Source: Bacteroidota bacterium (GTDB lineage: Bacteria > Bacteroidota > Bacteroidia > Bacteroidales > VadinHA17). Taken from it: 64,000 nucleotides of DNA. Of the stretch, positions 10,391 to 63,833 are shown piece after piece. Position 1 is the stretch's first letter. Every line of letters begins with the position of its first letter. The notes below the pieces were generated by a model that ran no database searches, was not told the origin of the DNA, and saw only the letters and a list, made by a program, of their open reading frames with translations. Location of the stretch: positions 248,001 to 312,000 of the forward strand of contig JAKPOU010000041.1 in assembly GCA_029547705.1 (NCBI GenBank), in the 5' to 3' direction. The position numbers and the translations under genes are program-made.

Positions 10391-13300
10391 TTATGGTCCT
10401 GAACTGCTGTTTTTCCTTTCCATGGCTTTGTTTCCCGAGTCCAGTATTTTTTTCAGGATCCTGAAGTACAGAACGGAATAAATCATCAGGGTAATGCACC
10501 AGAGGACAATGACGTTGACCCAGTAGGTATCCGTTTCCCTGCCGAACAATTTCTTTACCGGAGCATAAAAATGTGCCTTTATGAAATTGTGTTCCGGATC
10601 CATGTACACAGGATCAAGTTTCTGGATTATTTCATCCCTGTATACAATTATTTTTTCAGTTTCATTCTTGTTTATGACAAATTCTTCCAGGGCTTCATTG
10701 GCATAGTTATCCCTCATTGCCAGAAAGGCTTTACTGTCTGCGGCCTGCAGCCTGGTGACAATGGCATCCTTTTTATCCTTTGCAAGGTTTGAACAGGCTA
10801 CATAGTATCTTCTGACTTCTTCGGTATAGTCCAGTGCCTCCCTGACAATTTCCGGGGTGACTCCCTCAGGTGTGAGATGCTCAAGATGCCTGAACTTCAG
10901 TTGTGGCGTCAGTACTGCCTGTTTTGTGAATTCATTGTAAACAAGTTTCAGTTTCCTGAAGGATTCTTCATTTAATGTACCCCTTTCCAGATCTGACTGA
11001 ATTCTCTCCAGCCTGCCCTTTATTTCCGGGTGCAGGTAGTCCTTCCTGTATTTGGCCTGGCTCATCGCCTTGTCATAGACATAAAACTGCCTTCCATATA
11101 GATTGTCCTTGAACTGTTTCACAGCCAGGGCCTCATAACCCCATCGTGCAGTTATCATTTCTCCGTAAAAGGGAATGGATACCGGGGAAGACATCTGCGG
11201 ATTAAGTTTCTCGAATTTCACCATTACACCGCTTAGCATGATCTGGGGAATTACAAGGAAGGGTATGAGTATATAAATTGTCACAACTGCCTTGAAACTG
11301 TCTGAAATGACCAGTCCCAGCATGTTGGCGCCTGCCCAGCAGCTGAAAAGAACAAGCCAGTACTCGAAGAGCATTCCCCTTATGCCGGTGATCCAGTTCC
11401 CTATAAGCACGAAGGAAAAGGCCTGTATTGCCGAAATACTGAACTGGACTATCACTTTCGACATAAGATAGCTGTTCCAGCTGAGATTGAGAAATGCTTC
11501 CCTCTTAAGTATCTTGCGGTCCTTGATTATTTCCTCGGCACTTACTGTAAGACCCATGAAAATGGCCACAATCACCGACATGAAGATATAAACCGGGAGA
11601 TTTGCATTTTCATACAGAATATACCGGGGAACTGCTGAGCTTTCATCAAAATACCTGATCAGATATGCAAGGAAGAGTGCCAGAACCGGAGCCTCAAGCA
11701 GGGTGATAAGCAAATACTGGATATCAGATACCTTTGAGAGGATATCGCGTTTTACGAATACAATCATCTGTCTGACCTTATTCGGTATGTTGAAGTTGAT
11801 ATCCGGAATGGAGTTTCCGCGTTCCAGCTCTTCTTCCTTTTTGTCAGCCAGATAGAATTCATACCAGTCTGCAGGGGATATTCTTCTCGTATCAGTTGCC
11901 TGACCGCTCTCGGAATATACCCTGGTCTCAAGAATATTGAATATCTGATCGGGATTTACATTTCCGCAGACATAGCATTCGCTTTCGTTGTAGTTGGTCT
12001 GTTCAATCTTTTTCTTGAAATAATCTATCGATTCCACAGGATTTCCGTTGTAGACGGGATATCCTCCGGTATCAAGAATAATCAGCTTGTCAAACATTTT
12101 GAAAATATCCGACGAAGGCTGGTGAATGACGATGAAAAGCAATTTGCCCTTGCGGGTCAGATCTTTCAGCAGGTCAAGTATGTTTTCCGAATCACGTGAT
12201 GACAGTCCTGAAGTGGGTTCATCCAGAAAGAGTATCGATGGCTCGCGGATCAGTTCAAGTGAAATATTCAGCCTTTTCCTCTGTCCGCCGCTGATCTTTT
12301 TGTTCAGGGGACTTCCCACTTTCATGTTCCGTATATCATAGAGACCGAGATTCTTCAGCACGTTGTCAACTTTTTCAATTATTTCAACGTTGCTTAGATT
12401 TCCGAAGCAGAGCCTTGCGTTATAATACAGATTCTGAAACACGGTAAGGTCCTCGATCAGCAGGTCATCCTGGGATACAAAACCTATCAGTCCCTTGATC
12501 TTTTCCCTTTCCCTGTGAATATTTATGCCATTTATCAGAACTTCACCATCGGAGGGCTGATCTGATCCGTTCAGCACATGAAGAAGGGTGGACTTACCTG
12601 CACCGCTCGCCCCCATTATACCAACCATCCTTCCAGATTCGGTCTTAAAACTCATATGATGAAGGCCGATCTCACCGCTCCTGAACCTGTACTGCAGGTT
12701 ATTCACTTCATAGACGACTCTGGATGACTGGAAATCCTCCATGAGAAACTGCATTGTGACATCCCAGTAATAGACCGGTTTCACCTTGGAGAAGCGCAGG
12801 GATGATCCTTCACTGAAAGGATATACCTTGTCCTCCTGAAGAAGCTGCACACTCATTGACAATTCACCCGAGCCCCTGTAGCGGAGGAAATACATGTTTA
12901 CCGAGGGTATGAAAAGGATCCAGATCTGACCCTTCAGCAGTTCCCTGTGGATATGCCTGGTCTCCCGGAGGCTGCTTGAGGGATTGCCGTCTATAAGAAG
13001 GAGGTTCTGTGAATCAGGAATCTTTACAATCGGAGTCAGAATAAACAATTCAATCAGATCGAATTCTTCCTTTTTTATATTCAGCCCCTCCGACAGGGTT
13101 CTGATGAAACCAAGCTCCATCGCACTCACTGTCCTGTTTCCTGACCTGCAGAATTCAAGCGCCTGAATGACAACGAATATTCTTTGTTCATGATCTAGTC
13201 TTCCCTGTTCATTTATCTCGACACACAACCTCCATATCCTTACCGCAATGGCGCCTTCGCGCCGTTTGGAGCTCACTCTTTCAAGCCGTTTCCTGGCTTC

Positions 13301-13465
13301 TTCATAAGCTTCATCATACCTGGAAAGATATTTTTTTACAAGATCCTGACTTATAAGCCTGTACAGGAATGATTCAACCACCTCCCGTCTTTCGGTATCA
13401 TCAGCCTGAGGTTTGGCAATTATGGCAAATAACTGCATCAGGATTTCAAGTATCTTCTCACTCAT
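10391..13465 (-). CDS. ABCG-type transporter with N-terminal TerB-like domain
   Basis: A 1024-residue fusion. Residues 1-145 are helical and acidic, with a TerB-like pattern (ILMQLFAIIAKPQADDTERR). Residues 155-250 are beta-rich with no motif I can name. The ABC domain follows: Walker A GASGAGKST near 287, signature SGGQRKR near 393, Walker B LFLDEPTSGLSS near 413. Residues 580 onward have six or seven membrane helices of the ABC2 type, interrupted by a long soluble stretch at about 770-960 before the last helix. The nucleotide-binding-then-membrane order is that of the ABCG/White class. The substrate is unknown. It stands alone, convergent with siaBC and divergent from clpB. Confidence 0.85.
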   Translation of the reverse strand: MSEKILEILMQLFAIIAKPQADDTERREVVESFLYRLISQDLVKKYLSRYDEAYEEARKRLERVSSKRREGAIAVRIWRLCVEINEQGRLDHEQRIFVVIQALEFCRSGNRTVSAMELGFIRTLSEGLNIKKEEFDLIELFILTPIVKIPDSQNLLLIDGNPSSSLRETRHIHRELLKGQIWILFIPSVNMYFLRYRGSGELSMSVQLLQEDKVYPFSEGSSLRFSKVKPVYYWDVTMQFLMEDFQSSRVVYEVNNLQYRFRSGEIGLHHMSFKTESGRMVGIMGASGAGKSTLLHVLNGSDQPSDGEVLINGINIHREREKIKGLIGFVSQDDLLIEDLTVFQNLYYNARLCFGNLSNVEIIEKVDNVLKNLGLYDIRNMKVGSPLNKKISGGQRKRLNISLELIREPSILFLDEPTSGLSSRDSENILDLLKDLTRKGKLLFIVIHQPSSDIFKMFDKLIILDTGGYPVYNGNPVESIDYFKKKIEQTNYNESECYVCGNVNPDQIFNILETRVYSESGQATDTRRISPADWYEFYLADKKEEELERGNSIPDINFNIPNKVRQMIVFVKRDILSKVSDIQYLLITLLEAPVLALFLAYLIRYFDESSAVPRYILYENANLPVYIFMSVIVAIFMGLTVSAEEIIKDRKILKREAFLNLSWNSYLMSKVIVQFSISAIQAFSFVLIGNWITGIRGMLFEYWLVLFSCWAGANMLGLVISDSFKAVVTIYILIPFLVIPQIMLSGVMVKFEKLNPQMSSPVSIPFYGEMITARWGYEALAVKQFKDNLYGRQFYVYDKAMSQAKYRKDYLHPEIKGRLERIQSDLERGTLNEESFRKLKLVYNEFTKQAVLTPQLKFRHLEHLTPEGVTPEIVREALDYTEEVRRYYVACSNLAKDKKDAIVTRLQAADSKAFLAMRDNYANEALEEFVINKNETEKIIVYRDEIIQKLDPVYMDPEHNFIKAHFYAPVKKLFGRETDTYWVNVIVLWCITLMIYSVLYFRILKKILDSGNKAMERKNSSSGP

Positions 13466-13697
13466 TCAGACAAGGATGGTTAAATATACTTATGTTATGG
13501 ATTACATGACTTTTACCTGTTAAACGAAGAAATGAAAGCAGGGTTTCATCGGGGCCTGAACTATTACGCTGCGGAATATTCCCGTTTTCCGGAAATCCAG
13601 CGTCATTCTGACACAATAAACCGGTGGTTTAATGTCAAAAAGTCCCTTCGGGCTTTCTGGCAATTTTTTTGATGGAGGAAGCAGAAAAGGAGTATAC

Positions 13698-16328
13698 ATG
13701 AATTTAAATAATTTCACATTAAAGGCGCAGGAAGCGGTTCAGAAAGCCTTCAATATAACCAGGGGAAAAGGACAGCAGGCAGTTGAATGTGCCCATCTTC
13801 TCAAGGGTGTCATAAGCGAGGCCGAGAGTATTTCAGATTATCTTTTCGGCAAGGCTGGTATTGATACCCGGCTTTTAATACGGGATATTGACAGGCTGAT
13901 TGATTCCTATCCGAAAGTATCGGGAGCCGAAGCATATATTTCACCTAATCTGTCGGAGGCATTCCGCAAGGCGGGTGATCATGCCTCAGACATGAAGGAC
14001 AAGTTCATAACGCCGGAACATCTTATTCTGGGAGTGATGGGAACCGGTGACGAGAGCGCGGGAATACTCAGGGATCACGGAGCTACCATGAAGGGACTTG
14101 TTTCTGCAATCTCAGAACTGCGTAAAGGAGCAGTTGTCAACAGCCAGACATCGGATGACACCTTCAACTCACTTGAACGATATGCATTGAATCTCAATGA
14201 ACGGGCACGTTCCGGCAAGCTGGATCCGGTTGTCGGGCGCGATGACGAGATAAGACGGATATTACAGATCCTTGAACGGCGTACCAAGAACAATCCTCTT
14301 ATGATAGGGGAACCGGGTGTGGGAAAAACTGCCATAGCCGAAGGAATAGCCCACAGGATAATAAGGGGGGATGTTCCGGAAGATCTTAAATCGAAAGTTA
14401 TCTATTCTCTGGATATGGGAGCCCTGATAGCGGGTGCGAAATACAAGGGAGAGTTTGAAGAACGGCTGAAGTCGGTTGTGAACGAGGTGATAAGCTCGAA
14501 TGGAGGGATTGTTCTTTTTATCGATGAAATACACACCCTGGTGGGTGCAGGCAAATCGGAGGGTGCAATGGATGCAGCGAATATTCTGAAACCCGCATTG
14601 GCAAGAGGGGAGCTGAGGGCAATAGGGGCTACAACCTTCAATGAATACCAGAAATATTTTGAAAAGGACAAGGCGCTTGAACGCCGGTTTCAGGTGGTAA
14701 TGGTGGACGAACCCGGCAGGGAAGATTCAATATCAATCCTTCGCGGAATACGCGAAAAATATGAAGCACATCACAAGGTAATCATAAGGGATGAAGCGAT
14801 TATTGCTGCCGTTGATCTCTCAACCCGCTATATCAGCGACAGGTTTCTGCCCGACAAGGCAATTGATCTTATTGATGAGGCCGCATCCAGGCTGCGGCTG
14901 GAAATGAACTCCGTGCCGGATGAGATAGATGAGGCCAACAGGATTATTACCCGCCTGGAAATAGAAAAAGAAGCTGTCCGGAGGGACGGAGACAGGGAAA
15001 AAGAGGAAAAAATCGCAAAGGAACTTGCAGAAATGCAGGCGAGGAGGAATGAGCTGAATGCAGCCTGGAATTCTGAAAAGGAGATCATCAATAAGGTTCA
15101 GGCAAAAAAGGAAGAGATCGAATCGCTCAAGCATGAGGCAGGTCTGGCTGAGCGTGCAGGTGATTACGGAAAGGTGGCCGAAATAAGATATGGTAAGATT
15201 TCACGCCTTGAAAAGGAGATCGGGGAATTAAAAAACCAGATAGAGAACAAGCGGAAGAAAGGCTCCCTGGTCAGGGAAGAAGTGCGGTCGGAGGATATAG
15301 CGGAAGTAGTGTCACGGTGGACAGGAATCCCGGTTACAAGAATGATGGAGAGCGAAAAGGAGAAGCTTCTGCGGCTGGAGGATGAACTGCACAGGAGGGT
15401 TGTGGGCCAGGATGAGGCAATACGTGCGGTTTCGGATGCTGTGAGACGTTCCAGGGCAGGTCTTCAGGATCAGAAAAGACCTGTAGGATCATTTATTTTC
15501 ATAGGTACGACGGGAGTCGGTAAGACTGAACTGGCCAGGGCACTCGCCGAATTCTTGTTCAATGATGAGAACCTGATGACCCGTATCGACATGTCGGAAT
15601 ACCAGGAGAGGCATTCAGTGTCCAGACTGATCGGTGCGCCCCCCGGATATGTGGGATATGATGAGGGAGGCCAGCTTACGGAAGCTGTAAGACACAAACC
15701 CTATTCCGTTGTCCTTCTCGATGAAATTGAAAAAGCACATCCCGATTTGTTCAACCTCCTGCTGCAGGTGCTTGATGACGGAAGACTGACAGACAACAAG
15801 GGAAGAACGGTCAATTTCCGGAATGTTATCATTATTATGACTTCAAACATCGGATCAGACATTATCCGCGACAGGATGGAGCAATACGGCAACAACATGC
15901 CGGAAATGGAAGAGGAAAAACTCAGGAATGAAATTTTCGGACTTCTCAGAAGATCCATCAGGCCTGAATTTCTGAACAGGATTGATGAAATAGTCATGTT
16001 TCATCCTCTTAATCTTGAGCAGATCAATGAAATAGTTAAAATACAGATCGGGTATCTGAGAAAGCTTCTTTCAGGAAACAATATGGATCTTGAAATTACA
16101 GATGAGGCTGTCAGCTGGATTGCAGACCACGGATTTGATCCCCAGTCCGGAGCCCGGCCGGTAAAGCGCCTGATTCAAAAGGAGATAGTAAATGAGCTGT
16201 CGAAGCAGCTTATTGCGGGAAATATCAGGAGTGATTCCACGGTACAGATTTCTGTGGAAAACGGAAAGTTGAAATTTGGATCCCTGGCCAAGAAAATGCC
16301 TGTTTCTGAAGAGCCAGATAGAGCCTGA
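13698..16328 (+). CDS. clpB: ATP-dependent disaggregase ClpB
   Basis: An 876-residue Hsp100 chaperone that works with DnaK to pull apart aggregated proteins in the cytoplasm. Domains in order: double Clp-N repeat (residues 1-150), AAA1 with Walker [14 protein letters not shown] near 207, the coiled-coil middle domain of about 400-530 that distinguishes ClpB from ClpA/ClpC, AAA2 with [13 protein letters not shown] near 605, and a C-terminal D2 small domain. The frame extends upstream to 13632, but the ATG at 13698 is preceded by AAAAGGAG at 13685-13692 and begins the standard [15 protein letters not shown]. No heat-shock repeat (CIRCE) was seen upstream. Confidence 0.95.
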
Positions 16329-55875: not shown

Positions 55876-55950
55876 CGGGATGTAGCGCAGCCCGGTTAGC
55901 GCATCTGGTTTGGGACCAGAGGGTCGTCAGTTCGAATCTGACCATCCCGA
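55876..55950 (+). tRNA. tRNA-Pro (anticodon TGG)
   Basis: The acceptor arm CGGGATG pairs with CATCCCG, the discriminator is A and no CCA is encoded. The anticodon loop TTTGGGA in stem TCTGG/CCAGA gives TGG (55911-55913), which reads CCN proline codons. The T loop is GTTCGAATC. Its 3' part (55904 on) is duplicated at 63785, so it hosts an integrated element. The gene is intact after integration. Confidence 0.96.
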
Positions 55951-55952
55951 CA
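55904..55952 (+). repeat. attL: 49-bp att repeat inside tRNA-Pro
   Basis: Covers the anticodon arm to just beyond the discriminator base of tRNA-Pro and matches 63785-63833 base for base. Bases beyond either end differ, which fixes the repeat limits. This is the crossover zone of the integrase. Confidence 0.95.
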
Positions 55953-57148: not shown

Positions 57149-57352
57149 TTATTCCTCTTCGGGTGAAACAAAATATACTTTTGTCGCGTCTAAATGATTT
57201 GACATAAAAGCTTTTTGCATCGTGATTGCAAAAGGTTCCTTTGGAAAGGGGTTCATTCCTTCCAGGACTGCCAGTTTGCCCCGCTTCCCCTTCGCCTTCT
57301 CATCGAATGTTTTCATCCTGGGCCAAATTGTTGATTTACTTTTTTTCTTCAT
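57149..57352 (-). CDS. Small basic protein, unknown function
   Basis: A 67-residue protein opening KKKSKSTIWPRMKTFDEKAKG, strongly basic, with a GKRGKLAV motif shared with the 41-codon frame at 56081. Its start overlaps the RHH-protein stop by four bases (ATGA). The basic N-terminus suggests nucleic-acid binding, but no family is recognised. Confidence 0.6.
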   Translation of the reverse strand: MKKKSKSTIWPRMKTFDEKAKGKRGKLAVLEGMNPFPKEPFAITMQKAFMSNHLDATKVYFVSPEEE

Positions 57353-58146
57353 GATTCATCAATTTTGATAATGTCGTGCGGATTGACTGAAAATTTAATC
57401 CAGCCGCCTGTCGGCTCAAAACGTGCTGCAATAGCATCGTAGTAAAATAGACGGCTGATCCCGTCAGGGTTCACTTCCCCGGTTGCCAGAATGTCGTTTA
57501 ATGCCTGGCATAATTTTTTCACCTTTGCCAGCTTCTTTTTTTCTTCTGGGGTAGTTGCATAATGCCGATAACTATTTTTCAGCTTTTCAACTTCTGCGGA
57601 CAGGATATTGATTTTTCCTTCTTTCAGTTCAATGGTGTTCCAATAGATGACAGGCTTTGCCCCTGGTACGAAAGTCGGCATATCCTCAAATTTTTCTGCC
57701 AGCCTTAAAAGTTCTGACGTTTCCAGATCCGGGATATTGTCAAAGGTTACAATCAAATCCGGATATTTGGCCTGCATTCTTGCAAGCTGCCCGGCCCGGA
57801 TCATATTATTTATTTCATTCTGGAGCTTAGCTTTTGATCCGAGGGTTCCGGTATGTTTAAAGATCTGTTTCAGCTGTGTCATTGTAATATCCCAGCCTGT
57901 TACTTTGCGGAATTCATCAATGAAGGCCTGAAAATGTTTTTTGCTGAATTCTGACATTTCATCCAGGACCCGGATTCTTTCCCTGTCAATTAAAAACAAT
58001 TCCGGTTCATCTGTGGCAACTGTTTCAACGGCCTGGAATATTGTGTCAGTAATTGTTTTCGTTCCGAGTTTCTCCGCAACTGCCTGCAGGTTTTTCTCAT
58101 CCTTCTGGCTGGCCCTCAAATCAATACGTTTATTTCTGCCCGTCAT
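57349..58146 (-). CDS. Ribbon-helix-helix-like protein with unknown C-terminal domain
   Basis: A 265-residue protein. ATG at 58146 starts TGRNKRIDLRASQKDEKNLQ, then KTITDTIFQAVETV, which follows the ribbon-helix-helix pattern of a beta strand (RIDLRAS) and two helices. The remaining 220 residues are helical then beta-rich, with no recognised fold. RHH starts are found in plasmid-type regulators, mobilisation accessory proteins and partition proteins. An open frame reaches 58200, but its extra residues overlap the AT-rich promoter zone. It leads a run of five or six small genes. Confidence 0.7.
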   Translation of the reverse strand: MTGRNKRIDLRASQKDEKNLQAVAEKLGTKTITDTIFQAVETVATDEPELFLIDRERIRVLDEMSEFSKKHFQAFIDEFRKVTGWDITMTQLKQIFKHTGTLGSKAKLQNEINNMIRAGQLARMQAKYPDLIVTFDNIPDLETSELLRLAEKFEDMPTFVPGAKPVIYWNTIELKEGKINILSAEVEKLKNSYRHYATTPEEKKKLAKVKKLCQALNDILATGEVNPDGISRLFYYDAIAARFEPTGGWIKFSVNPHDIIKIDES

Positions 58147-58286: not shown

Positions 58287-58414
58287 AAGCCCTCTGTTGA
58301 TAAGCCAGAAGATATATTTATAAGGGGCTTGTAAGGACCTTTAAAAAACTTATAAGGACCTTCAAAGAAAAGGGCCCTGTTGACCTGGGTAATGCAAATC
58401 CCGCCACAGGGCCC
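58287..58414. other. Intergenic region with 21-bp repeats and GC-rich hairpin
   Basis: The 304-base gap 58147-58450 holds: AAGCCCTCTGTT at 58287-58298 (also at 61108-61119); two direct 18-bp repeats, 21-bp period, CTTGTAAGGACCTTTAAA at 58328-58345 and CTTATAAGGACCTTCAAA at 58349-58366 (two mismatches); and a 9-bp perfect stem GGGCCCTGT at 58372-58380 with ACAGGGCCC at 58406-58414. Iteron-like repeats next to a hairpin could form a replication origin or a regulator site. This is inference; the hairpin may also be a terminator of the upstream gene. Confidence 0.5.
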
Positions 58415-58450: not shown

Positions 58451-59029
58451 TTAAAAAAATGGTAATGAATCTGATATTTCAAATTCTCTCTTGTAACAAT
58501 CCATAACTTCAAGCCGGCTGCCATGTTTTAATACAGTCATTATAATATTACTATCTTCAACCGTGATTTGTATCTTTTCTTGTACAAAGTCAACGCCATT
58601 ATCTGTAACAATATCAAGCCGCTTGCATATCTCAATCACTCTGTTGAAAAGTTTATCATAATAATATTCCCCTATAATACCTCGGTATCTGAATTCAGGA
58701 TCACCGTCACGCTCAGAGTAACAAATATTATAATTAGGTTCTGTTTTCACATGAGCACATTCACCATTCTTAAAATTATAAGTGTAAATAATTTCAAACT
58801 CTTCAATTTCAAAGGAAAGTTCAGCCGTGAATATTAAATCCGGGTTATCCGCGCTTAATTGACAAATTATCTCTTTTGGTGTATGAAGACAACTTTCGAT
58901 ATAGACGGATCCATCTTCATCAATTACACTCATAAGATACAGTTCTTCGTCAAAAGGTTCTTTGGCAATAATATCCCTGAATCTTTCAGGATCACTGCAC
59001 CATAGTTTTGTTAAATAATTACTCATCAT
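58451..59029 (-). CDS. Hypothetical acidic protein of the element
   Basis: A 192-residue soluble protein, acidic and beta-rich (EEFEIIYTYNFKNGECAHVKT; EKIQITVEDSNIIMTVLKHG). ATG at 59029, with a second at 59026. No recognised family, signal or catalytic motif. It stands alone between two intergenic zones of the element and could be cargo such as an anti-host or host-defence gene, but nothing in the sequence proves this. Confidence 0.65.
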   Translation of the reverse strand: MMSNYLTKLWCSDPERFRDIIAKEPFDEELYLMSVIDEDGSVYIESCLHTPKEIICQLSADNPDLIFTAELSFEIEEFEIIYTYNFKNGECAHVKTEPNYNICYSERDGDPEFRYRGIIGEYYYDKLFNRVIEICKRLDIVTDNGVDFVQEKIQITVEDSNIIMTVLKHGSRLEVMDCYKREFEISDSLPFF

Positions 59030-59320: not shown

Positions 59321-60604
59321 TCAATTTTCATGATTTTTGATTCTGATTTTTGGACAATAGCCTGTTACTTCTTTAATGACTTCAGCCATTATTTTTTTTA
59401 CTTTTCCAGCTTCCCTTACAATGAGTATATCCGAGGGCAAAATAGAATCATGTTTTGTTATGAATGGCACACCTGGAAGATCCTGCACAATTCGTGGTGC
59501 TACTCTTTGAAGGATCACAAAAGATTCTATTTTCTGCAATAGGATTGCAAGTTTTCTGTAATCTTCTTTTTTTATCGTTTTGAACAGCTGCCATACATTC
59601 GGGAAGCATTTAGAAAACAGACGGGCCGCTTTACTATATCTTTCCGCTCCATTGCGGCCAAAGAAAACAATGAACAACTGTTCTTTCAGGTCCTTCCGGT
59701 CAATAAATGAAATGTCATTCTCTTTGAATTTATTCATCATGTATTGATAAAATTTCCCGCTTGTTACGAGAGAAGTATATAGTTTAACATCCTTATAATG
59801 TGTTAATTGCAGAGATTTTGACAACATTATATAAGATTGTCCCAGGTATCCGGCAATTATTTTCTTTATTTCCGGTGTCGGGTTAAAGAGTGATGCGGCA
59901 AAAAACGGCTGACTGCAGGATATATCAACTTCTTTTAAATGTTTACCGTCAATTGTGAGGTGTGGGATCATTTCACCGGGCAAACGTGTAAAATTGCTGT
60001 CGAGTCTGCCGTTTGTGGAATTGCATTTGATGAAAATTTGTCCCTGGTGGATCTTTTCAATTTCTGCAAGTGAAAAGGTTCTTCGCCTCTCGGCTTTTTC
60101 AGGATCAATAAGGGATCTTTTCCGATATTCATTTTCAACTGCATTTAATGCAGCTTCTTTGTTTATTTTTACTCGGTGTATGAAAGAATTCAGGACTGGA
60201 TATTTTTTGCTGTTTCGCCTTAGAATTGCAATCCTGTTTTTTTCAATGCGGTAAATTAGTTTCTTATCTGTTAATGTCCGGTATTCTGTTTTTCCCTCTT
60301 CTTTGAGACGGTATAGCCGGGAGTTACGGCCTGCAAAGTGATTAATCCATTCAATTATGCCTTCATCCTTTAAGTAGTTCAGATATTTGCCGGAGTGAGG
60401 AACAACATTTCTGAGATATTCAGAATTGAGCAAAGAATAAGATCCAGGGTGATGCTTTTGTTTATGCGAAAGAATTAAATGAATGAGGTACTCCATCCGG
60501 GAAATTGTGAATCCCGGTATCGGTGGCGGGTGCTGCTCAATCATTTTCATTTTGTCAATCAAATTAGATGCAATTAGTATTTTATACTGTTTGTTTTTTC
60601 GCAT
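59321..60604 (-). CDS. Divergent family A DNA polymerase-like protein
   Basis: A 427-residue protein (ATG at 60604; the frame continues 15 codons up to a TTG). Residues 55-105 look like a winged helix (YLRNVVPHSGKYLNYLKDEGIIE). The C-terminal half carries the palm motifs of family A polymerases in order: TNGRLDSNFTRLP near 197-209 (like the GRLSSxxPNLQNIP segment of PolA), motif A with Asp227 in EVDISCSQP, motif B R303-x3-K307-x3-F311-x3-F315-G316, and motif C KHDS at 384-387 (like the HDE of PolA). No 5' or 3' exonuclease domain is visible. This is motif-based inference; catalysis is unproved. Confidence 0.6.
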   Translation of the reverse strand: MRKNKQYKILIASNLIDKMKMIEQHPPPIPGFTISRMEYLIHLILSHKQKHHPGSYSLLNSEYLRNVVPHSGKYLNYLKDEGIIEWINHFAGRNSRLYRLKEEGKTEYRTLTDKKLIYRIEKNRIAILRRNSKKYPVLNSFIHRVKINKEAALNAVENEYRKRSLIDPEKAERRRTFSLAEIEKIHQGQIFIKCNSTNGRLDSNFTRLPGEMIPHLTIDGKHLKEVDISCSQPFFAASLFNPTPEIKKIIAGYLGQSYIMLSKSLQLTHYKDVKLYTSLVTSGKFYQYMMNKFKENDISFIDRKDLKEQLFIVFFGRNGAERYSKAARLFSKCFPNVWQLFKTIKKEDYRKLAILLQKIESFVILQRVAPRIVQDLPGVPFITKHDSILPSDILIVREAGKVKKIMAEVIKEVTGYCPKIRIKNHEN

Positions 60605-61617: not shown

Positions 61618-62319
61618 TCATTTCTTCATGATTGCGCGGCATTTACTTAATGTTTCTCTGAACGTCTGTTTTTCTTTATGTATAGATTTCGTCTTTTCAA
61701 AATCCTGAATGCCAAACCTATTTAAAACAAAATCTTCAAAGTCAAAGGCTGCCCCGGTAGTTTCCTGAATAGCTGCCAGTATTGCTATTAAAATAAGTTT
61801 GTTACTCCCTTCCGTTGCCTTCGCATCTATTGCAATAGGTGGGACCGGGGCACCATTACGGTTGAATCTTTGAGACCATACAGACAAATCCTCTGAAAAA
61901 TACTCTTTATACTTATCATAAATTAAATTGATGTATTCAATTCTAATTACAAGCTGAAATAAATCATTATCAGATAAGTTTTGAACAAAATTCTCATAGC
62001 TTTTTAAGTTGAAATATTGCCGCATGAATTTTTCAAACTGTTCAAAAACTACAGGTTCAGGCAGATTACTTTCTAACTCTATTTGAATATATTTATTTAT
62101 CCAATCAGTTGTTAAAGTGTTGAAATAGTTTTGTGCCCAAACATGACCGATCATTGTATCATGAGCAATTTCATGCTTTAATTCATGGATTCTATTTTTA
62201 AAATATGCTTGTATTCCTTCAGGATATGATTGTGAAAGTGAATGATCAAGCTGTAATTTATGATTTACCAGGCTGTTTTTTTCAGCATTCCTGATAATGG
62301 CTGTTATTTTATCTTTCAT
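61618..62319 (-). CDS. Element protein of unknown function, coupled to integrase
   Basis: A 233-residue helical, acidic protein. No known family, but HELKHEIAHDTMIGHVWAQNYF near residues 47-68 is histidine-rich and the later NKYIQIELESNLPEPVVFEQFEKF is helical. Its ATG is three bases after the integrase stop, so it is almost surely co-transcribed and may help integration or immunity. No membrane segment or signal. Nothing proves catalysis. Confidence 0.65.
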   Translation of the reverse strand: MKDKITAIIRNAEKNSLVNHKLQLDHSLSQSYPEGIQAYFKNRIHELKHEIAHDTMIGHVWAQNYFNTLTTDWINKYIQIELESNLPEPVVFEQFEKFMRQYFNLKSYENFVQNLSDNDLFQLVIRIEYINLIYDKYKEYFSEDLSVWSQRFNRNGAPVPPIAIDAKATEGSNKLILIAILAAIQETTGAAFDFEDFVLNRFGIQDFEKTKSIHKEKQTFRETLSKCRAIMKK

Positions 62320-62322
62320 GGC

Positions 62323-63612
62323 TTAAAATGCAATTAAATTCTGGGCTGCTCTTGCTCTCTGTTCCTGTTCAAATCCTGCCAGGTAGTTCTCCGTTGTCTT
62401 TGCGTCTGAATGCCCCAGGGCTTCAGAAATAAACGCAATGCTGGCCCCGGATCTTTTCAAGACAGTTGCGTATGAGTGCCGGGCTGTATAGGTTGAAATT
62501 TTATCAATGCCCAGGGCCTCGCTGATCATTGCCATTTTTTTATTTGTAAGCCTGATAACATTCTGAATAATGCGTTTTTCATCCTTTGGCTTCAGGCCGG
62601 GAGACAGGAACGGGAAGATATAACTCTCCGGCTTCCTTGATGGATTGCCCCAGCGTTTAATAATCTCTTCCATCTGGGGAAGCAATGTTGCTGCAATCTC
62701 CTTTTGATTCCTGACTGTTCGTTTTGTTTTTTGCCGTATAAAATAGATTTCACCACCTGCAATATTTTTATACTTCAGCTTCAGCATATCATTAAAATTA
62801 ATTCCATTACACAGATAGGAGAAATACCACAGGTCCCGGCTTCTTTTTTCAGTTTCGGTATGTAGTGGATAATCCAAAACAGCTTTAATCTGTTGAAGGG
62901 TAAGGGCCATTTTCCGGCCGGTTGCTGTCTTTATTTCAAACTTGTCTCTGCCGAACGGATACTGCCCTGCATTGATAATGCCGTTCTTCCTGGCCTCGTT
63001 CATTATTGCCCTGATGCAGCCAATATAAAATTTGGCCGTTGTTATGGATCTTTGTCTTGTTTCTCCTTTTGTCGTGACTTCCTTCAATAGATCACTTTCA
63101 TATTTTTCAAGCCAGTGTACTGTCACGTCTGCAAACTTCAGATCTTTCCTTCCTGTATAATTCATAATGCTGTTTAAAGCACATTGATAGCTTGAGGCAG
63201 TTCCTATCTGTCCGGCTGCTGTTAATGCTTCAATCTTGTTTAAAAACGCTGTTATAACGCTGTTATCGTTGCCTCGGCTTAATCTGCGGTTGAAGGCATC
63301 AGGAGAAAATCCTTCACCTTTGGTCAGTTCCTTAATGAGTGCTTTGATCTTTTCAAAGCCTGACTGAATAAGGGCCCTGGTTTCAATTAACTCCCGCTTC
63401 CTGGTATTTGGCATTTCCTGCCATTCCTCCATTGTCAGGTCAATGCCTGAAGAGTGAAAGTAGTAACGGCCATTAAAAAAGATCCGATACTTAACCGGAT
63501 AACGCAATTCATGAAAAACAATGTCCTTTTCATCGGAAACGGGTATGTTTTTTGCTCTTCGGGTATCAAAATAAATTGATGCAATTACACCATCTAAAGA
63601 ATATTTTTCCAT
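62323..63612 (-). CDS. int: Tyrosine-type site-specific integrase
   Basis: A 429-residue phage/CTn-type integrase. ATG at 63612 begins MEKYSLDGVIASIYFDTRRA; the frame extends 40 codons up but without family match. An arm-binding/SAM-like N-domain precedes the catalytic domain: LCNGINFNDMLKLKYKNI at residues 268-285 (the usual first arginine is Asn272), Lys295, TARHSYATVL with Arg378 and His379, LGHSDAKTTENYLAG with His401 and nucleophile Tyr410. It recombines the 49-bp att repeats in tRNA-Pro. Loss of the first arginine is also known in some Bacteroides CTn integrases. Confidence 0.93.
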   Translation of the reverse strand: MEKYSLDGVIASIYFDTRRAKNIPVSDEKDIVFHELRYPVKYRIFFNGRYYFHSSGIDLTMEEWQEMPNTRKRELIETRALIQSGFEKIKALIKELTKGEGFSPDAFNRRLSRGNDNSVITAFLNKIEALTAAGQIGTASSYQCALNSIMNYTGRKDLKFADVTVHWLEKYESDLLKEVTTKGETRQRSITTAKFYIGCIRAIMNEARKNGIINAGQYPFGRDKFEIKTATGRKMALTLQQIKAVLDYPLHTETEKRSRDLWYFSYLCNGINFNDMLKLKYKNIAGGEIYFIRQKTKRTVRNQKEIAATLLPQMEEIIKRWGNPSRKPESYIFPFLSPGLKPKDEKRIIQNVIRLTNKKMAMISEALGIDKISTYTARHSYATVLKRSGASIAFISEALGHSDAKTTENYLAGFEQEQRARAAQNLIAF

Positions 63613-63784: not shown

Positions 63785-63833
63785 TCTGGTTTGGGACCAG
63801 AGGGTCGTCAGTTCGAATCTGACCATCCCGACA
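63785..63833 (+). repeat. attR: 49-bp copy of the tRNA-Pro 3' end
   Basis: Identical to 55904-55952. It lacks the 5' half of the tRNA, so it is not a second tRNA gene. Minus-strand reading gives DGQIRTDDPLVPNQ, a well-known false protein from antisense tRNA. Confidence 0.95.

Follow-up and report, generated by a model that had tools for sequence, protein, structure and literature searches.

A small integrative element in the genome of a Bacteroidota bacterium, probably one of the Bacteroidales (3.78-Mb assembly in 70 contigs), raises the question of what work is done by a single 427-residue protein that carries polymerase motifs. The window, by which we mean the whole stretch of 64,000 nucleotides that was analysed, lies on contig 27 of that assembly. 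A preliminary description, made from the sequence, had proposed a miniature PolA-like polymerase with a winged-helix start and no exonuclease, belonging to no named family. We found that the open reading frame is real, in frame and begins at an ATG, and that all the motif positions given for it are correct: the GR hairpin TNGRLDSNFTRLP (residues 197-209), D227 in EVDISCSQP, the O-helix R303-x3-K307-x3-F311-x3-F315-G316, and KHDS at 384-387. The features of the protein and of the element around it are collected in Table 1.

Table 1. Features of the polymerase and of its integrated element, in window coordinates
Feature	Position	Strand	Evidence
att copy 1 (3' portion of the tRNA-Pro(TGG) gene and one further base)	55904..55952	+	49 nt, 100% identical
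DUF5681 protein, 101 aa	56584..56889	-	Pfam DUF5681 1.3e-12; phrog_26239
265-aa protein	57349..58146	-	Pfam DUF7928 2.9e-5, under family cut-off
192-aa protein	58451..59029	-	best Pfam match E 0.052; no PADLOC match
TV-Pol-like / PolA-superfamily minimal polymerase	59321..60604	-	427 aa; motifs, alignment, model, divPolA2 match
Motif C KHDS, residues 384-387	59444..59455	-	H385, D386 56/56 where covered
Motif B / O-helix, residues 303-316 (R-x3-K-x3-F-x3-F-G)	59657..59698	-	K307 58/58; R303 R 37/58, K 15
Motif A Asp227	59924..59926	-	D in 58/58
GR hairpin, residues 197-209, R200 invariant	59978..60016	-	R in 58/58
N-terminal winged-helix-like domain, residues 34-111	60272..60505	-	secondary structure in two models; weak fold matches
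DUF4326 protein, 105 aa	60657..60974	-	Pfam DUF4326 5.2e-19
HTH_17 / excisionase-type protein, 114 aa	61134..61478	-	Pfam HTH_17 8.5e-13; NCBIfam excise 1.6e-9
233-aa protein, function unassigned, adjoins integrase	61618..62319	-	no Pfam match up to E 5
Integrase of the tyrosine recombinase type, 429 aa from its ATG	62323..63612	-	Pfam Phage_int_SAM_5 7.5e-16, Phage_integrase 1.3e-12
att repeat copy 2, far element end	63785..63833	+	49 nt, 100% identical to copy 1

Conservation was read from an alignment (A5) of 58 rows, in which the window protein stands with 20 cellular and 37 viral sequences. It was drawn from 105 ORF rows of 103 loci, thinned at 70% identity to 54 with three rows restored; the two halves of a split gene (L125), a remnant (L113) and a mis-started row (L117) were excluded as fragments. 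A further alignment, A8, used 51 of the 58 rows. Residues R200, D227, K307, P335 and E360 are invariant in A5, as are H385 and D386 in the 56 rows that cover them; E360 sits in an LQ-x2-E motif overlooked by the preliminary description. Conservation had been expected at D227, R303, K307, H385 and D386, and four of the five fall within the 16 of 427 positions conserved in at least 95% of rows (hypergeometric p = 6.5e-6), but position 303 is Arg in 37 rows, Lys in 15 and another residue in 6. F311, which had been counted as a motif residue, varies (Y 29, F 19, L 9, gap 1). In the same helix K307 held, but the Tyr typical of family A is Phe in 55/58 rows and Tyr in only 3 at position 315; position 316 is Gly in 42. 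The candidate fingers Asp, D272, is Glu in 30/58 rows and Asp in 26/58.

A full-length AlphaFold2 model built on A5 reached a pLDDT of 94.1 and a pTM of 0.91, and a Foldseek search of the PDB with this model returned 28 matches at E <= 0.001 (best E 5.7e-6). Going by title, a 'T7 replisome' is one of these and family A DNA polymerases are the other 27, among them apicoplast polymerase, Klenow, Taq variants, T7 and pol theta. The best 50 of the 630 matches at E <= 10 comprise, again by title, family A DNA polymerases, T7 replisome chains and mitochondrial RNA polymerases, the last appearing in lower-ranked rows beyond the first 28. TM-scores by query length are low (0.30-0.43 for the 28 matches), so the likeness is one of the core and not of the whole chain. 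Among viral structures (BFVD), the best match is an unnamed protein of 409 aa (TM 0.72), followed by a 403-aa protein that is titled 'putative DNA polymerase I' and comes from an uncultured marine phage (TM 0.69) and, lower, by a Rheinheimera phage protein (E 5.6e-7) that is of the divPolA2 kind judging by its phage. The GR hairpin is modelled with strands at 192-194 and 201-203, and helices 149-164 and 168-186 stand at the place of a candidate two-helix thumb. No exonuclease domain is apparent in the 427 residues, as had been claimed. Model and structural matches thus agree on the PolA/T7-RNAP-like right-hand fold proposed earlier, and a palm fold carrying the residues of motifs A, B and C is confidently predicted. 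Of the two outcomes named beforehand as speaking against the proposal, a model without such a palm and free variation of the listed residues across the family, neither was seen, although position 303 is Lys in 15 rows and another residue in 6.

The model also bears on the N-terminus, where residues 34-111 form helix-strand-helix-helix-strand-strand-strand, as modelled within the whole chain and again when residues 1-112 were modelled by themselves (pLDDT 91.2). By title, its best fold matches are largely regulators (MarR, CodY, FabT, Fur and others; best E 0.053), which presumably carry the winged-helix fold; MAGE-A11, ScpAB and some unrelated rows are also among them, and no match reached E 0.001. 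The N-terminus therefore looks like a winged helix in its secondary structure and its best matches, but the domain spans 34-111 and not 55-105 as first drawn, and the matches stay short of significance.

Sequence comparison places the protein near a family described from phages. Because phmmer searches of the PDB and of viral_contigs with the window protein alone found nothing, alignments were needed. The polymerase has no match in NCBIfam, none in Pfam up to E 5 and none below 0.1 in PHROGs, and two phage homologues gave no PHROGs match up to 0.01. Across the 58 A5 members Pfam returned weak matches to three families, none of them in more than two members; one was Rep_1, in a single member (0.0078), and PF00476 was not among the families matched (E <= 0.01) by any of them. 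Searching PDB sequences with the A5 profile (hmmsearch) yielded 4 matches, the best at E 0.22. On profile comparison (hhalign) the polymerase is significantly related to phage divPolA2, with a probability of 97 and an E of 1.1e-10 over a region spanning the GR hairpin and motifs A to C (E 5.1e-11 with the palm region alone). Bacterial PolA, T7 RNAP and the one Ma-LMM01 protein tried (MAP_030, presumed to be a TV-Pol by position and motifs only) gave no significant profile link to the family. When an alignment was forced against 15 Bacteroidota PolA sequences (probability 4, score not significant), D227, R303, K307, F311, F315, G316, H385 and D386 fell in register with PolA motif residues. The GR hairpin fell on the GRxHTSF segment that precedes GRLSS in PolA, which makes the earlier equation of GRLDSNF with GRLSS uncertain.

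We found relatives of the polymerase in 17/196 related genomes (E <= 0.01) and in 14/395 genomes of the phylum (E <= 1e-5), the source genome being counted in both, in 23 of 90 pattern-matching stretches of genome_contigs, and in 140 of 168 from viral_contigs, of which 80 were taken further. Homologues occur in 6/50,697 phage records, all 595-735 kb long, and in 1/72,556 plasmid records, from Hymenobacter. Named cellular hosts include Bacteroidales, Prolixibacteraceae, Chitinophaga, Lutibacter, Algoriella, Hymenobacter and one planctomycete; the Lutibacter homologue (L125:9977-11421) is split in two ORFs and is broken or frameshifted. In an unrooted tree of 64 rows, the Bacteroidales elements and one viral contig form a group of 16 rows (support 100/97), and most of the large-phage rows form a group of 35 (support 100/98); several rows have long branches and are unsure in place. 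The plasmid already has an annotated replication initiation protein and ParA, and a plasmid Rep role for the homologue was dropped for that reason.

The element itself is well delimited. The tRNA-Pro(TGG) gene at 55876-55951 contributes a 49-bp repeat that recurs perfectly at the far end, 7.93 kb away between outer repeat ends, which bears out the description of a small integrative element. The 233-aa protein next to the integrase shares BLAST cluster F11 with proteins of loci L118 and L122. None of the 12 ORFs called in the element contains a Walker A motif. Neither a helicase candidate (COG3378 and DUF927 types included), nor a gene for a capsid or a terminase large subunit, nor an iteron-like cluster (three exact 10-mers within 250 bp) was found there. 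Among the 8 elements or regions scanned, one iteron-type triplet was seen, in L115. Pfam, NCBIfam and PHROGs named no other replication gene among the window-element proteins scanned. PADLOC gave no match for the polymerase or for six other window proteins, and a defence function was set aside. Between the 192-aa and 265-aa genes, at 58328-58369, lie two tandem 21-bp copies (86% identical) that are possibly operator or origin sequences.

Part of this architecture recurs in related loci of other genomes. Integrase, HTH and polymerase follow one another on one strand in 16/23 cellular loci; an integrase of the same cluster lies elsewhere in L124, L126 and L128, and none of that cluster is present in L106, L121, L123 and L127. 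PICIs keep their primase and rep genes after the integrase and HTH. Direct repeats at a tRNA gene were found in 4/17 other loci searched, namely 48 bp at tRNA-Ala (L115), 42 bp at tRNA-Arg (L118), 20 bp at tRNA-Val (L120) and 17 bp at tRNA-Met (L117); 13 had none, several of these being cut by contig ends. The elements at tRNA genes measure about 7-12 kb. Walker A motifs in these four bounded elements were absent from L115 and L118, present in the polymerase itself in L120, and present in the terminase and a 94-aa HTH-cluster ORF in L117. No terminal overlap indicating circularity was found in five short contigs, and the second-gene proteins of ten related elements had no Pfam match above cut-off. 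Directly before the polymerase stand a VRR-NUC gene in L108 and a weakly matched HNH nuclease gene in L109.

Some relatives carry genes that point towards phage packaging. In L117 a protein matching phrog_26239 (12331-12633), as the DUF5681 protein of the window does, directly precedes a terminase large subunit (12620-13933; PHROGs 2.4e-23, with a Pfam match under cut-off), and by this position the window DUF5681 protein may be small-terminase-like. In L118 a prohead protease (E 5.8e-31) occurs together with a defence protein, bSEFIR (PADLOC, 1.3e-72). The terminase gene of L117 and the protease and defence genes of L118 suggest that the elements are phage satellites. The window element, in which we found neither a capsid gene nor a terminase large subunit, is called a 'satellite' on the strength of DUF5681 and of the relatives.

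Several loci are of interest in their own right. L106:5183-12278 holds the closest relative (57% identity), in which two serine recombinases replace the tyrosine integrase, so that the recombinase is exchanged and the polymerase kept; a topoisomerase-like gene (PHROGs) lies nearby. At tRNA-Arg, L118:13427-15978 places a SIR2-like protein (weak, 0.0024) and bSEFIR as cargo beside the prohead protease. L114:12716-16865, in the locus of a related element of Maribellus sediminis, encodes a 979-aa protein with a DpdB match (5.5e-23) next to what is by eye an adenine-methylase-like gene. Upstream of a full-length element, L113:2978-4188 appears to be the remnant of a second one, with an HNH-cluster ORF, a polymerase fragment and a DUF5681-cluster ORF.

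We scanned ten phage records, out of 85 viral loci retrieved as homologues, for replication genes at E <= 0.001, and another DNA polymerase family was matched in all ten: partial PolB matches in 8, and PolIII alpha with a PF00476 protein in 2. The homologue therefore looks like an accessory replication protein of these phages and not their sole polymerase. DnaB_C was matched in 9 records (8 over cut-off), DNAG_N in 1, and Toprim_2 in 6 (5 over cut-off, three strong). Several of the phages may thus have a DnaG-type primase and not need the homologue, which weakened the idea that it is their only primase. In L020:1332-5369 and L031:6355-10393 the homologue overlaps by 4 nt the start of the PF00476 gene, a second small gene of the PolA superfamily that follows it, and an aspartate carbamoyltransferase-like gene is seen nearby by eye.

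Two positions of the active site may bear on the choice of sugar. Five residues past the motif A Asp, 57/58 rows have Gln (Q232 in the window protein); Glu stands there in PolA (A6 consensus DYSQIE), as it does in divPolA2 (consensus DYxAxE). The steric-gate and O-helix positions reportedly govern rNTP/dNTP choice, as studied in Klenow Glu710 and T7 RNAP Tyr639. With both the steric-gate Glu and the O-helix Tyr absent (Q232, F315), the polymerase may use NTPs as well as dNTPs, and a relaxed choice is our prediction. CcPol-MP, a cousin in kind, prefers dNTPs according to the available part of its description (PMC7581432).

We consider it somewhat probable that the polymerase acts as replication protein for its tRNA-integrated host element, itself most likely a phage satellite, and that it primes and/or starts the DNA synthesis of that element. 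It would be a catalytically competent enzyme of the PolA/T7-RNAP superfamily and of the TV-Pol kind, without exonuclease. The integrase and the HTH_17 excisionase-type protein would release the element, the polymerase would then make primers and/or the first DNA on it, and the winged-helix-like domain would assist docking on DNA; as no helicase candidate was found in the element, unwinding would be left to the host or a helper phage. A PolA-type primase of a mobile element has been demonstrated biochemically in CcPol-MP (available text of PMC7581432). The preliminary description had suggested that the one protein could combine origin recognition with synthesis: the conserved catalytic residues agree with synthesis, but the element has no iteron-like cluster and origin recognition is conjectural. 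We infer that priming together with an origin role is the likeliest mechanism.

A rival role is one in repair, gap-filling or second-strand synthesis after excision or transfer, in which the polymerase would not initiate replication of the element. That it follows integrase and HTH in 16/23 cellular loci, the place of PICI primase and rep genes, and that no other replication gene was named in the element argue against a repair function, which we regard as unlikely even though the phage homologues coexist with another polymerase in 10/10 records, the window element is free of iteron-like clusters and repair is one possibility listed for divPolA2 (Yutin 2024, PMC11348598, in the part available). 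It is very improbable that the protein is a single-subunit RNA polymerase transcribing genes of the element or of a phage. The large N-terminal promoter-binding domain is absent, the T7 RNAP profile comparison is not significant and 0/28 PDB matches at E <= 0.001 are titled RNA polymerase, although motif C reads HDS as in T7 RNAP in the alignment, Gln and Phe stand at the steric-gate and O-helix positions (57/58 and 55/58), mitochondrial RNA polymerases are among the fold matches listed and the available text of Yutin 2024 raises this possibility for divPolA2 (PMC11348598).

A further alternative differs from the replication-protein reading in the lifestyle of the element alone: a non-satellite integrative element, mobilisable or a replicative transposon of TV-Pol type, whose own replicative spread the polymerase drives. 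We take this to be possible rather than probable. Iyer 2008 proposed it for TV-Pol elements with integrases or resolvases (PMC2579912), and the serine recombinases of L106 are in keeping with it, as is the window element, where neither a terminase large subunit nor a capsid gene was found; the terminase large subunit of L117, the prohead protease of L118, DUF5681 or its PHROG in the window and L117, and the sizes of about 7-12 kb at tRNA genes speak for satellites. In its boldest form, the replication-protein reading would make the element a single-protein replicon, in which winged-helix docking and an NTP/dNTP primase-polymerase replace the pair of primase and Rep helicase, define a new helicase-free class of Bacteroidota satellites, and recur in jumbo phages, where an enzyme of this kind would work alongside the phage's own replicase; this we hold to be decidedly unlikely.

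Apart from CcPol-MP and piPolB, nearly all known primases are said to belong to one of two families (PMC10061031, in the part available). If our reading is true, a PolA-superfamily primase unrecognised by Pfam and NCBIfam, at the core of Bacteroidota elements in which no helicase is visible, would lengthen this short list, and the polymerase could give a marker gene for such integrative elements. It lends itself directly to tests in vitro, being small, with an active site that is invariant and with changed residues at the sugar gate. The jumbo phages that carry a homologue beside other polymerases raise the question of which job needs two. Among the open-access papers listed, none described a Bacteroidota satellite family with such a polymerase in its title or the start of its abstract, which is weak evidence, as the subscription literature lies mostly outside them.

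Contrary to the claim that no named family has this form, published relatives in kind exist: TV-Pol, the CcPol-MP / PolA-SSB primases and divPolA2. TV-Pols were described by Iyer, Abhiman and Aravind in 2008 as PolA-superfamily cores of 400-600 aa in mobile elements with lambda-type integrases or resolvases, with members in Bacteroidetes and planctomycetes; they have an invariant Arg in the hairpin, two palm Asp, RxxxK and a conserved Asp in the fingers, and a two-helix antiparallel thumb, and only a subset is fused to or neighbours a D5 helicase (PMC2579912). The window polymerase is like these in its 427 aa, R200 in the hairpin of 58/58 rows, D227 and D386, the lack of an apparent exonuclease and an integrase neighbour. 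K307 is constant where R303 and D272 vary, helices 149-164 and 168-186 are a candidate for the thumb, and the one presumed TV-Pol tried gave no significant profile match. Unlike the all-helical N-terminus of TV-Pol, its own is winged-helix-like; no helicase was found in its element, and the R303 position is Lys in 15/58 rows. We regard it as a TV-Pol-type variant, set apart by its N-terminus and by surroundings in which no helicase is visible.

The divPolA2 proteins of barba-, Vibrio and Aeromonas phages are, in the available text of Yutin 2024 (PMC11348598), about 430 aa long, with an active-looking palm, no exonuclease and, like the window protein, an N-terminal globular domain of their own; the alignment between the two families starts just before the GR hairpin. 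They keep Glu at the steric gate where the window family has Gln, and are reported there from phages, whereas the window family also occurs in integrated elements. The CcPol-MP / PolA-SSB primases likewise have a PolA-type catalytic subunit on an integrated mobile element, but pair with an OB-fold protein and adjoin a helicase (Bebel 2020, PMC7581432; Rice 2023, PMC10061031; both in the parts available), and no helicase was found in the window element. With bacterial DNA polymerase I and T7 DNA polymerase the window protein shares the core fold, the catalytic residues and the R-x3-K-x3-F-x3-aromatic-G spacing, but it is far shorter and lacks their exonuclease domains. The element as a whole resembles PICIs and other phage satellites in being small and tRNA-integrated, with an integrase, an excisionase-type HTH, a replication-type gene and, in some relatives, packaging-related genes. 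Such satellites measure about 7-20 kb (PMC13376191, in the part available), and the window element, at 7.93 kb with an integrase, att repeats and no virion gene set, is of this form; SaPIs carry a primase and a Rep helicase where it has a TV-Pol-like polymerase.
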